In this document: in pieces, positions 17,844-20,906 of the stretch | How the letters are laid out: the number at the start of each line of letters is the position of its first letter | Numbering within the stretch: position 1 is the stretch's first letter | Assembly: GCF_001425905.1 (NCBI RefSeq) | Contig: NZ_LMDY01000014.1 | Location: 124,001-188,000 of the forward strand | Length of the DNA stretch: 64,000 nt | Origin: Methylibium sp. Root1272 | Lineage (GTDB): Bacteria > Pseudomonadota > Gammaproteobacteria > Burkholderiales > Burkholderiaceae_C | Direction: 5' to 3' | Notes under the pieces: generated by a model | What the model was told of the DNA's origin: nothing | Seen by the model: only the letters and a program-made list of their open reading frames with translations | Database searches by the model: none | Position numbers and translations under genes: made by a program

Positions 17844-18245
17844 TCAGCGGGCTGCGAGCCAGGCCTGTGCCAGCGCCCAGCCGAGCGCGGCACAGGCCAG
17901 CGAGCCCAGCACGTGCGCCAACGTGTGCCCCAGCGCCATGCCGTAGGATCCGCGCTGCAGCAACACCAGAGATTCGAGCGAGAACGCCGAGAAGGTGGTG
18001 AAACCGCCGCACAGGCCGGTCACCAGCAGCAGGCGCAGCAGGTCGTCGGGCCGCTGCGACAACCAGGCCGCGGCGGCGCCGATCACGAGGCCGCCCGACG
18101 CATTGATCAGCAGCGTGCCCAGCGGGAAGCCGCTCCAGGCCGGGTTGAGCCACAGGCCGACACGCCAGCGCAGCAGCGCGCCGACCGCCGAGCCGGCCGC
18201 GACGCACAGCGCCTGCAGCAGCGGCGAGGCGACGGCGGCGCTCAT
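17844..18245 (-). CDS. crcB: Fluoride exporter CrcB (Fluc channel)
   Basis: 133 residues with four predicted membrane helices, the usual size for a dual-topology Fluc fluoride channel. Diagnostic motifs: GSAVGALLRWRVGL, PLGTLLINASGG (the conserved N-x-x-G pore helix) and GLCGGFTTFSAFSLE, in which the GGxTTFSTF-like signature contains the phenylalanine/threonine fluoride track. The start ATG overlaps the moaE stop by four bases (ATGA). I see no crcB-type fluoride riboswitch, since the gene begins inside moaE. Confidence 0.95.
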   Translation of the reverse strand: MSAAVASPLLQALCVAAGSAVGALLRWRVGLWLNPAWSGFPLGTLLINASGGLVIGAAAAWLSQRPDDLLRLLLVTGLCGGFTTFSAFSLESLVLLQRGSYGMALGHTLAHVLGSLACAALGWALAQAWLAAR

Positions 18246-18721
18246 GCGTTGCCGTTCGCTGCGATGCCCCAGCGCCGGAGAGCGTCGTCGTCGGCGACGC
18301 GGGCATCGACCCAGCGGGCGCCCTGCGGCGTCTGCTCCTTTTTCCAGAACGGTGCCTGGGTCTTCAGGTAGTCCATCAGGAATTCGCAGGCTTGGAAGGC
18401 CTGGCCCCGGTGCGCGGAACTGACCACCACCAGCACGATCTGTTCGCCCACCTCGAGCGCTCCGATGCGATGGATGACCCGGGCGCCGAGCAGGTCGAAG
18501 CGCTCGAAGGCCGCGTCGATCATGGCCTCGATCGCACGCTCGGTCATGCCGGGATAGTGCTCGAGCTCCATGCGGCTGATCTCAGCGCCGTCGTTGCGGT
18601 CGCGTACGGTGCCGACGAAGCTGGCAACCGCGCCGACGCCGCGCTGATGGGCGCGCAATGCGGCGACCTCGGCGGACAGATCGAAGTCCTCCGTCTGGAT
18701 GGTCACGCGTCCGGTCGTCAT
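18242..18721 (-). CDS. moaE: Molybdopterin synthase catalytic subunit MoaE
   Basis: 159 residues. MoaE pairs with thiocarboxylated MoaD to convert precursor Z (cPMP) to molybdopterin. Visible motifs: GAVASFVGTVRDRNDG, LELEHYPGMTERAIEAM-like helix, RIGALEVGEQIVLVVVSSAHRG and the catalytic-lysine stretch FLMDYLKTQAPFWKKE. ATG at 18721 (MTTGRVTIQ) is preferred over 18739. The partner moaD lies 1.9 kb upstream, separated by the pseudokinase gene. Confidence 0.96.
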   Translation of the reverse strand: MTTGRVTIQTEDFDLSAEVAALRAHQRGVGAVASFVGTVRDRNDGAEISRMELEHYPGMTERAIEAMIDAAFERFDLLGARVIHRIGALEVGEQIVLVVVSSAHRGQAFQACEFLMDYLKTQAPFWKKEQTPQGARWVDARVADDDALRRWGIAANGNA

Positions 18722-18776: not shown

Positions 18777-20504
18777 TCAGCCCGGCAGTTCGTCGTTCTG
18801 GCGCAGCCGCACGCACTGCGCGTGCGCGTAGAAGCGGCTCTGTTCGCACTGCACCTGCATGCAGCGGTACAGCGCGAAATTGGTCCGTGGCGCGCAGGCT
18901 TCGGCCGGAGTGCCGGGCACGGGCTCGCGGCGCGCCAGTTCGGCAGCCGGAGCCTGTGTGGGCGGCGCCGGACTGACAGCGGACGGCGCGGACGCGGGCC
19001 GCTCCGGCCGGGTCGTCACCGGCGCCGCAGCGGGCGCCACCGCCGCGGTCGTGGTGCGTCCGGGGTTGACCACGGCCGGCTCCAGCGGACGCGACGGGGG
19101 CGCGGGGGTGGCGGTCGCTTGCGGGAGCGGCGCCAACACAGGATCGGCAGCGGCCGGCGCCGCCATGCCTGCGGCGGACGGATCGTGTTGCACGAGATCC
19201 TGCTCCGCCGACGGCAGCGTGGCCGGCGTGGGCACCGTGCTTGCAAGCCGGGAGACCGGCGGGTAACCGGTCAACTGGTAGGTCGCCAGTCCTGCGACGA
19301 CCAGGGCGCCCAACACGCCGGCCACCGCCCAGGGCCAGCGACGCTGACGCGGCGCGGCTGGCGCCGCAGGCCGCGCTCGTGGGGCGCTGTGCATCATGGG
19401 GTCCGAACGCAGGCCGGCCAGCCCCTGCGGCCGGCTGTCGCGCTCGAGCTCGCCCGGCCCGGACACCGACCACAGCACTTCGCGATCCTGGAAGGGGGCT
19501 GTCAGCACCGGGATGTCGGACAGCGCCAGACCGCGGCGATCCGGTGCGACCAGTGGCTCCCGTGCCACCGCCGCGGCGCCGCCGCCCATCGCCTGCAATT
19601 GCCGCCGGAACGCCGCCACCGACTGGGGCCGCTCGCGCGGGTCGGCGGCCAGTGAACGCTCGAGCACCGACACGAAGCCATGCGCGTAGCGCCCGACCGT
19701 CGAAGCGCCGGTGGCCTGCGGTGTGGCGCCCCCTGCCAGTCGCGGCGCGTTCATGCAGAACTGCACCACGGCGGCCAGAGAGTAGAGATCGGACCAGGGA
19801 CCCGGCGCGTGCTCGCTCGGCGGCTCGGCCAGTTCGGGCGGCCGGAAGCCGGGCTCCGGCCACGCGGGGTGCTGCGGCAGGCGCGCACCGATCGTCGTCC
19901 GCACCGCGGCGGTGTCCAGCAGCATCGGGGTGCCGTCCGGCTGCACCAGGATCTGCCCGGGCCGGACGTTGCCGTGCACCCATCCGGCCTCGTGCAGGCT
20001 CTCCAGCGCATCGAGCAAGGGCCCGATCAGCCGGCGCAGCCAGTCCTCGCTCGGCGCCTCGTTCATCGCGGCGCAGGCTTCGGCGAGCGTGCGCCCTTCG
20101 ACACGCGGCCACAGCCGGTAGGCGGTGCCACGCATCTGCCACACCGCGCCGATGCGCATCAGCGCGGGATGCAGGGGCTTGGCGAGCAGTTCCGACTCCT
20201 GCAGGAAAGCCTGCAGGCCCTCCTCCCACAAGGCAGCATGAGCCGGCGAGCGGGGCCGCAGCAGCCCGGTCGTGTCGCGCAGCGAAACCCCGGCCGGCGC
20301 GAACTCCTCGATCGTGACTTCGCCTCCCGACGCGCTGGCGGTGGCCAGGTAGCGCAGGCCGAACTCGTCCCGCGCCTGCAGCTTCTGCAGAACGAAGCTG
20401 CCCACAGCCGTGCCGGACGGGAGCCGCTGGGGCTCGACGACCGCAGGACGGGCGCTCACCGCGGGTGGACTCGCGGGGTCGGAAGGGCGAGAGATGGGAA
20501 TCAT
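18777..20504 (-). CDS. Membrane-anchored protein-kinase-like protein lacking catalytic residues (pseudokinase)
   Basis: 575 residues. A Ser/Thr-kinase-like fold (about 20-320) has recognisable landmarks but no catalytic set: the VAIK lysine is Glu (VTIEEFAP, about residue 66), the HRD loop reads HGN (WVHGNVRPGQILV, about 176-178), and DFG reads DTA (MLLDTAAVR, about 197); the APE-like FRPPEL and the SDLYSLAAV helix remain. One membrane helix follows (RRWPWAVAGVLGALVVAGLA, about 388-410), then a Pro/Ala-rich presumably periplasmic stretch and a C-terminal cysteine cluster (CAPRTNFALYRCMQVQCEQ, then HAQC). The start is ATG at 20504; upstream codons to 20630 lack similarity. It separates moaD from moaE; no link to molybdenum is evident. 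Probably a regulatory scaffold. Confidence 0.78.
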   Translation of the reverse strand: MIPISRPSDPASPPAVSARPAVVEPQRLPSGTAVGSFVLQKLQARDEFGLRYLATASASGGEVTIEEFAPAGVSLRDTTGLLRPRSPAHAALWEEGLQAFLQESELLAKPLHPALMRIGAVWQMRGTAYRLWPRVEGRTLAEACAAMNEAPSEDWLRRLIGPLLDALESLHEAGWVHGNVRPGQILVQPDGTPMLLDTAAVRTTIGARLPQHPAWPEPGFRPPELAEPPSEHAPGPWSDLYSLAAVVQFCMNAPRLAGGATPQATGASTVGRYAHGFVSVLERSLAADPRERPQSVAAFRRQLQAMGGGAAAVAREPLVAPDRRGLALSDIPVLTAPFQDREVLWSVSGPGELERDSRPQGLAGLRSDPMMHSAPRARPAAPAAPRQRRWPWAVAGVLGALVVAGLATYQLTGYPPVSRLASTVPTPATLPSAEQDLVQHDPSAAGMAAPAAADPVLAPLPQATATPAPPSRPLEPAVVNPGRTTTAAVAPAAAPVTTRPERPASAPSAVSPAPPTQAPAAELARREPVPGTPAEACAPRTNFALYRCMQVQCEQSRFYAHAQCVRLRQNDELPG

Positions 20505-20651: not shown

Positions 20652-20906
20652 TCAGCCGCCCGTGACCGGCGGGAAGAAGGCGATTTCGGCGCCTTCATGC
20701 ACCAGCGTGGTTTCATCGTCGACCATCGCCTGGTCCAAGGCCATGCGCAGGGCGCGGCCGCGGCCCAGTGCCTCGGCATGGCGCCCGCCCCGCGCGATGA
20801 GCTGGTCTCGCAGCCCGGACAGGCGCGTGCCGGCGGCGAGTTCGACCGTTTCGCCAGGGCCGAGCGCCTCGCGAACCGAGGCGAAATAGCGCAACTGCAC
20901 CTTCAT
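20652..20906 (-). CDS. moaD: Molybdopterin synthase sulfur carrier subunit MoaD
   Basis: 84 residues, ubiquitin-like fold (KVQLRYFASVREALG to AEIAFFPPVTGG). The C-terminal Gly-Gly, which becomes the thiocarboxylate that donates sulfur, is intact. ATG at 20906 is supported by a GGAGG-like site (GAGACCTCCC reversed) and by the standard MKVQLRYFA N-terminus. It follows moeA by 10 bases and is probably co-transcribed with it. Confidence 0.95.
   Translation of the reverse strand: MKVQLRYFASVREALGPGETVELAAGTRLSGLRDQLIARGGRHAEALGRGRALRMALDQAMVDDETTLVHEGAEIAFFPPVTGG

Follow-up and report, generated by a model that had tools for sequence, protein, structure and literature searches.

The gene at positions 18777..20504 of the window (the whole 64,000-nucleotide stretch of the Methylibium sp. 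Root1272 genome analysed here) encodes a membrane-anchored pseudokinase. With a probability of roughly two in three, we regard it as a true pseudokinase that derives from PpkA-type membrane kinases bearing a four-cysteine tail, and that works as a non-catalytic, membrane-anchored adaptor coupled to a periplasmic module. The gene with its parts, moaD and moaE lie on the minus strand. Its product consists of 575 amino acids plus a stop codon, with an ATG start (MIPISRPSD) and the stop codon at 18777-18779. The N-terminal MIP recurs in the orthologues of genomes G003, G004, G005 and G135; the start of the G001 orthologue differs.

The kinase-like domain (residues 25-310; 19575..20432) is a member of the protein kinase superfamily by both sequence and fold homology. 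Its nearest solved relative is PpkA (5hnv), described as the Ser/Thr kinase of type VI secretion system (T6SS) threonine phosphorylation. A phmmer search aligned residues 26-299 with the solved PpkA kinase domain (E 5e-34), and the first Foldseek match of the predicted domain structure was again 5hnv (E 3e-14, TM 0.48, rmsd 12), although the domain model, built with five sequences, is of modest to low confidence (pLDDT 61, pTM 0.50). PpkA is thus the closest solved Ser/Thr kinase in alignment and in structure prediction, the latter at low confidence; from the full-length AlphaFold model (pLDDT 46) no conclusions were drawn. The Pfam Pkinase profile scored 30.0 bits, slightly below its cut-off of 31.7. 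Several other database matches were discarded: a Pfam match to PqqD (E 0.0012) is below the cut-off and was taken as chance, and NCBIfam matches to LanL, MAD6 and PknB-PASTA are far under their cut-offs. An anti-phage kinase was also rejected, because the PADLOC matches to MkoA, PD-T4-6 and mad6 were interpreted as generic kinase-domain similarity and the named neighbours include no defence genes.

In the alignment with PpkA, IAIKEYMP is replaced by VTIEEFAP, HRDISLDN by HGNVRPGQ, and DFG by DTA. Accordingly, Glu66 (20307..20309) stands at the position of the VAIK lysine, as it does in all five orthologues located at the moa genes and in the G135 orthologue; HGN occupies the HRD position (residues 177-179; 19968..19976) and DTA the DFG position (residues 197-199; 19908..19916). 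The catalytic-loop Asn has been changed to Gln (NVRPGQ), and the glycine loop is degraded to QARDEFGLR (residues 43-51; 20352..20378), in contrast to forms such as LGxGGFGxV found in most relatives. The alpha-C Glu is retained (Glu103). The original prediction, which had been made from the sequence alone, stated that all three catalytic positions are changed; all three motifs are indeed altered, but the aspartate of DFG is itself kept as Asp197, so the metal-binding residue has not been lost. Among the features of an active Ser/Thr kinase, the protein therefore lacks the Lys, the HRD Asp and the glycine loop and retains the DFG Asp.

These losses are not peculiar to one protein. Five of the six Methylibium genomes (that of the window, G003, G001, G004 and G005) carry the pseudokinase gene between moaD and moaE; in G005, it lies on two contigs of one metagenome-assembled genome (MAG), with moaD followed by the N-terminus on L093 and the gene followed by moaE on L089. 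A sixth orthologue, with VLIEEFA, HGNVRPGQ and DTG, is present in G135, a genome of another genus. The six orthologues form one clade (support 100/100), in which the G135 protein is placed next to those of the window and G003, and the stem branch of this clade is long (0.94 and 0.89 changes per column). When the orthologues were surveyed for intact catalytic residues, all six, the window protein included, were found to have Glu in place of the VAIK Lys and to lack the HRD Asp, and in all six the glycine loop and the catalytic-loop Asn are also gone. In the five moa-linked proteins, the HRD Asp has become Asn (four) or His (one) and DFG is DTA, DPA or DSG; with the DTG of G135 included, the DFG motif is altered in every orthologue and its Asp is kept in every one. 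The five moa-linked orthologues show no variation at Glu66, Glu67, Glu103, His177 or Asp197.

Beyond the kinase-like domain, the architecture corresponds to what had been predicted. One clear hydrophobic helix (residues 391-411; 19272..19334) was found as the hydropathy maximum at a matching place in all six orthologues; it scores 1.8 on the Kyte-Doolittle scale, as compared with 0.98 for the best segment elsewhere, and basic residues precede it. The following Pro/Ala-rich spacer (residues 413-531; 18912..19268) evolves rapidly. The cysteine cluster that terminates the protein (residues 532-575; 18780..18911) proved to be a regular motif, C537-x10-C548-x4-C553-x10-C564. Judging from the single transmembrane helix and the basic residues before it, the protein is likely to adopt an N-in/C-out topology, which would place the tail in the periplasm, where its four cysteines would probably be disulfide-bonded.

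To examine selection, dN/dS was calculated by the NG86 method for each segment. Between the window protein and its G003 orthologue, the ratio is 0.10 for the kinase-like domain (N-lobe 0.04, C-lobe 0.13), 0.21 for the linker, 0.19 for the transmembrane helix, 0.63 for the spacer and 0.07 for the cysteine tail, and the controls MoaE and MoaD gave 0.07 and 0.12, respectively. The G005-G004 pair yielded 0.12 for the kinase-like domain (0.12-0.13 for both lobes, N-lobe 0.13), 0.57 for the linker, 0.16 for the helix, 0.32 for the spacer and 0.08 for the tail. The low values at both ends of the protein in these close pairs indicate that the pseudokinase is maintained. Higher ratios were obtained for the distant pairs, in which dS is about 0.9: 0.28 and 0.37 for the kinase-like domain and the tail between the window and G135, and 0.54 and 0.26, respectively, between the window and G001. 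Constraint thus appears to be weaker or shifted over longer times, which counts against the reading as a maintained adaptor.

This pattern bears on the view that the gene is a decaying kinase pseudogene or a functionless hitch-hiker. The loss of catalytic residues, the failure to find the gene in the Methylibium genome G002, the long stem branch and the ratio of 0.54 for the kinase-like domain between the window and G001 would fit such decay. However, the frame is open in all six orthologues, and the ratios in two independent close pairs (0.10-0.12 for the kinase-like domain and 0.07-0.08 for the tail) are near that of MoaE, which makes decay very improbable. The combination of losses in every orthologue with purifying selection in two close pairs is that of a bacterial pseudokinase. 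Because the parts needed for phosphate transfer are mostly lost while the fold and the tail are under selection, the protein is probably a signalling adaptor rather than an enzyme, in keeping with the signalling or scaffold role proposed in the original prediction.

We propose that the ancestor was one of the membrane-anchored Ser/Thr kinases of the PpkA type that, in this bacterial family, terminate in the four-cysteine tail. The cytosolic kinase fold of its descendant would no longer transfer phosphate and probably would not bind ATP, and it would serve as a protein-binding platform, that is, as an adaptor, a scaffold or an allosteric partner. The periplasmic four-cysteine module would set the state of this cytosolic part through the one membrane helix. 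The retention of Asp197 and Glu103 in all five moa-linked orthologues counts against a dead pocket, because neither residue would be needed if the pocket were quite dead. An alternative explanation is an atypical enzyme whose pocket has been repurposed, with Asp197, Glu66 and Glu103 taking part in some other ATP-dependent or non-ATP chemistry. SelO and SidJ, as presented in a review of bacterial pseudokinases (PMC12599244), provide precedents for other activities of pseudokinases. The invariance of Asp197, Glu66, Glu67 and Glu103 and the dN/dS of 0.04 for the N-lobe, the lowest of any segment between the window and G003, point in the same direction, although the low N-lobe value was not repeated between G005 and G004 (0.13). 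On the other hand, SidJ uses its retained Lys, according to the same source (PMC12599244), whereas this position is Glu here; the glycine loop, the Lys and the catalytic-loop Asn have disappeared from all six orthologues; and the DFG Asp is not kept in the tailed-group pseudokinases of G051, G022 and G244 (LLGP). Such an enzyme is thus unlikely, and we continue to favour the non-catalytic adaptor.

The genomic position of the gene might suggest a role related to its neighbours. Upstream of it is moaD of the ThiS family (20652..20906; Pfam ThiS, E 1e-14), and downstream is moaE (18242..18721; Pfam MoaE, E 9e-39); the identities of both were taken from Pfam and their start codons were read from the sequence. 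The surrounding genes are crcB, moeA and mobB, identified by Pfam like moaD and moaE, and clpB, thrC and hom, read from translations. A scan of the locus detected three terminator-like sites, as compared with 0.6 expected, and no sigma-70-like promoter site; none of our conclusions draws on it. We surveyed 30 moaE loci from the 93 genomes with a match, including 24 loci from other genera. In 16 of the 24, moaD and moaE overlap or are at most 100 bp apart; in G012, no moaD could be detected within the 14 kb around moaE, and the G057 locus is at a contig end. In Methylibium G002, in which the pseudokinase was not found, the two genes are 59 bp apart; a five-protein tree placed this genome with support of 65/68, which does not separate loss from original absence. 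The pseudokinase is therefore an extra gene at a usually closed junction, as had been predicted.

In six other-genus loci (G008, G009, G010, G015, G020 and G025), 1.0-2.1 kb separates moaD from moaE (L083, L086, L082, L088, L084 and L087, respectively), and no similarity to the pseudokinase was found when it was looked for in these six inserts. That of G010 is an ORF for a GGDEF-type protein of 564 amino acids, and others contain opposite-strand ORFs, including small ones and, in three cases, a DapA-like one, all as read from translations. Across genera, the moaD-moaE junction behaves as a variable insertion site, and its acceptance of other genes weakens a functional link between the pseudokinase and molybdenum cofactor.

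This bears on the explanation that the protein is a molybdenum-cofactor factor: the MoaD-MoaE step would be tethered to or controlled at the membrane by it, or it would act as a sensor of molybdate or of the redox state. The same-strand insertion between moaD and moaE in five of the six Methylibium genomes is what such a factor would lead one to expect. However, the G135 orthologue has no moa genes as neighbours, none being detected by tblastn in the 19 kb around it; G002 has the closed junction without the pseudokinase; the other pseudokinases examined (those of G051, G022, Rhizobacter and G244) are not at moa genes; and the six other-genus genomes carry different genes, such as that for the GGDEF-type protein, at the junction. 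A molybdenum-cofactor function is therefore improbable, and the tie to this pathway that the gene order might suggest is not borne out: the association is probably incidental. For the adaptor that we favour, the position would be an insertion of convenience, possibly with shared transcription and no functional link. As read from translations, the neighbours of the G135 pseudokinase gene are ExoD-like, CIA30-like, ferric-reductase-like and TonB-receptor genes.

Homologues of the protein are widespread in related genomes. They were detected in 91 of the 100 relatives searched, and a profile search that scored three candidates per genome found matches with E <= 1e-30 in 366 of 399 genomes of the family. 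In an alignment of 60 homologue rows (58 distinct), which comprise best matches and are hence a non-random sample, 46 rows retain the Lys, the Asp of H-x-D and D-F/L-G. Many of these 46 have the four-cysteine tail, so that the intact ancestral type is still visible. The remaining 14 rows are not intact; in nine of them, the Lys and the HRD Asp are missing and DFG is abnormal. A row from G051 has kept the Lys and has HGA and GPN. Tailed kinases of G313, G140, G375 and G240 (L100, L102, L103 and L106) have kept the Lys and have HRE, together with DLS, DFN or DFS in place of DFG in three of them and DYG in one. These HRE proteins may represent a half-way stage of catalytic loss or may be kinases with altered chemistry. 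A further row, from contig C22 of G140, has the Lys with HGG and GLG. When the eleven strongly degraded rows were constrained to one clade, the AU test rejected the topology (p = 0.0208), using a tree of 33 hand-chosen rows of the 61 domain rows that contains long branches and in which the group was defined after the first tree. This rejection is moderate evidence that catalytic loss probably occurred more than once.

The tail has a wider distribution than the pseudokinase. The C-x10-C-x4-C-x10-C motif is present in all 26 aligned tails (that of the window protein and 25 others); because these rows were picked by the pattern C-x9-11-C-x4-C-x9-11-C, the invariance of the four cysteines results from the selection, but the similarity of the flanking residues does not. 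The alignment captured 26 of 27 loci, with L109 outside the G-[PA]-W-[ST]-D filter, and L015, which has one extra residue, was omitted. A profile of the 26 tails matched 34 of 60 genomes of the family to which the window belongs and none of 40 genomes of the other families of the order (E <= 1e-6). In a class-wide draw of 369 genomes with up to 20 candidates scored per genome, the only match was the genome of the window itself, and, at E <= 0.001, 12 of 13 chosen genomes had a match. No Pfam profile matches the tail of the window protein at E values up to 1. It is absent from 11 of the 60 homologue rows and hence is not universal among such PpkA-type kinases. It appears to constitute a separate module.

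Other proteins also end in this tail. A PknB-type kinase with intact motifs on contig C14 of G007 (L147:2634-4430, + strand) terminates in it (E 4e-13), and its gene adjoins an ORF that reads as an adenylyl cyclase plus FHA. Weaker matches were found in zinc-ribbon-like membrane proteins with N-terminal CxxC pairs in G135 (E 1.4e-5; L145:3324-4640, - strand) and G244 (E 1.5e-5; L146:2645-3904, - strand), the coordinates being stop to stop. Each of the two is encoded beside a transporter gene of PnuC-like type and a small ORF that resembles a septum protein, as read from translations. We tentatively raise a broader idea: the tail may be a previously undescribed module for periplasmic signal input, confined mostly to this bacterial family, that is joined through a transmembrane helix and a Pro/Ala spacer to differing cytosolic outputs (PpkA-type kinases, PknB-type kinases and zinc ribbons), and whose kinases have repeatedly turned into pseudokinases that act as non-catalytic co-receptors of active kinases or as stand-alone adaptors.

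Candidate partners for a co-receptor are present in several of the genomes. Tailed PpkA-type membrane kinases with intact motifs occur in the genome of the window (G000; L043) and in G003 (L042), G004 (L035/L038) and G005 (L036/L037). As exemplified by the kinase at C14:201329-202810 of G000, they have the same order of kinase domain, transmembrane helix, spacer and four-cysteine tail as the window protein, but retain the catalytic residues that it has lost. A constant active tailed partner is not universal, however: the paralogues looked at in G135 and G051 are intact PpkA-type kinases without the tail, and G001 yielded only a cytosolic kinase and more distantly related kinases, with no intact tailed paralogue; this also counts against the favoured reading. 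A constant pairing of one active with one dead receptor is thus conceivable but not required. In the genome of the window, the intact tailed paralogue adjoins genes for a ferredoxin reductase-like protein and a TonB receptor (L043:1881-7814, + strand), and genes of the same two kinds, read from translations, lie near the G135 pseudokinase (L122:3791-10647). The cytosolic PpkA-like kinase type was matched in all ten genomes searched; in that of the window, its gene is directly before an ORF for a PP2C-like phosphatase (L131:7269-9168, + strand).

Comparison with known systems sets the protein apart. It differs from PpkA in lacking the catalytic residues and in having a C-terminal part composed of the Pro/Ala spacer and the four-cysteine tail, and, in contrast to PpkA of T6SS, which is encoded together with T6SS genes and phosphorylates Fha, its neighbourhood genes include no T6SS cluster. 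The review names seven families of bacterial pseudokinases (PMC12599244). The GLW family is proteobacterial and has a transmembrane region, with GLW in place of HRD and Leu or Trp in place of the beta-3 Lys (PMC12599244), whereas the six orthologues described here have HGN or HGH and Glu. CP1 proteins have no transmembrane region and a linked COG3899 domain (PMC12599244), whereas the window protein has a transmembrane helix and no second domain above the Pfam cut-off. The DLHK and DYD families keep HRD and/or DFG, both of which are changed here, and ActPs1-3 are actinobacterial with constraint patterns of their own (PMC12599244). As far as the described features are comparable, the window protein therefore matches no published family. 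Its best functional analogue, likened by description, is EssB/YukC, a one-pass membrane protein and scaffold of the type VIIb secretion system (T7SSb) of Firmicutes, whose cytosolic pseudokinase is degraded in all motifs (LDMR, Ytfvlapd and TRG) and in the glycine loop (PMC12599244); the gene neighbours differ. In the limited open-access literature, of which we had a partial view, we found neither a paper on a Methylibium pseudokinase nor a title or abstract opening that describes this group.

Related genomes thus contain proteins of one receptor-like architecture whose catalytic motifs are intact, half-degraded (HRE) or strongly degraded, which makes the step from enzyme to adaptor testable. 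What replaces catalysis in such pseudokinases can be addressed in the same group of genomes, and the four-cysteine tail that these proteins have in common points to an unnamed periplasmic module for sensing or anchoring.
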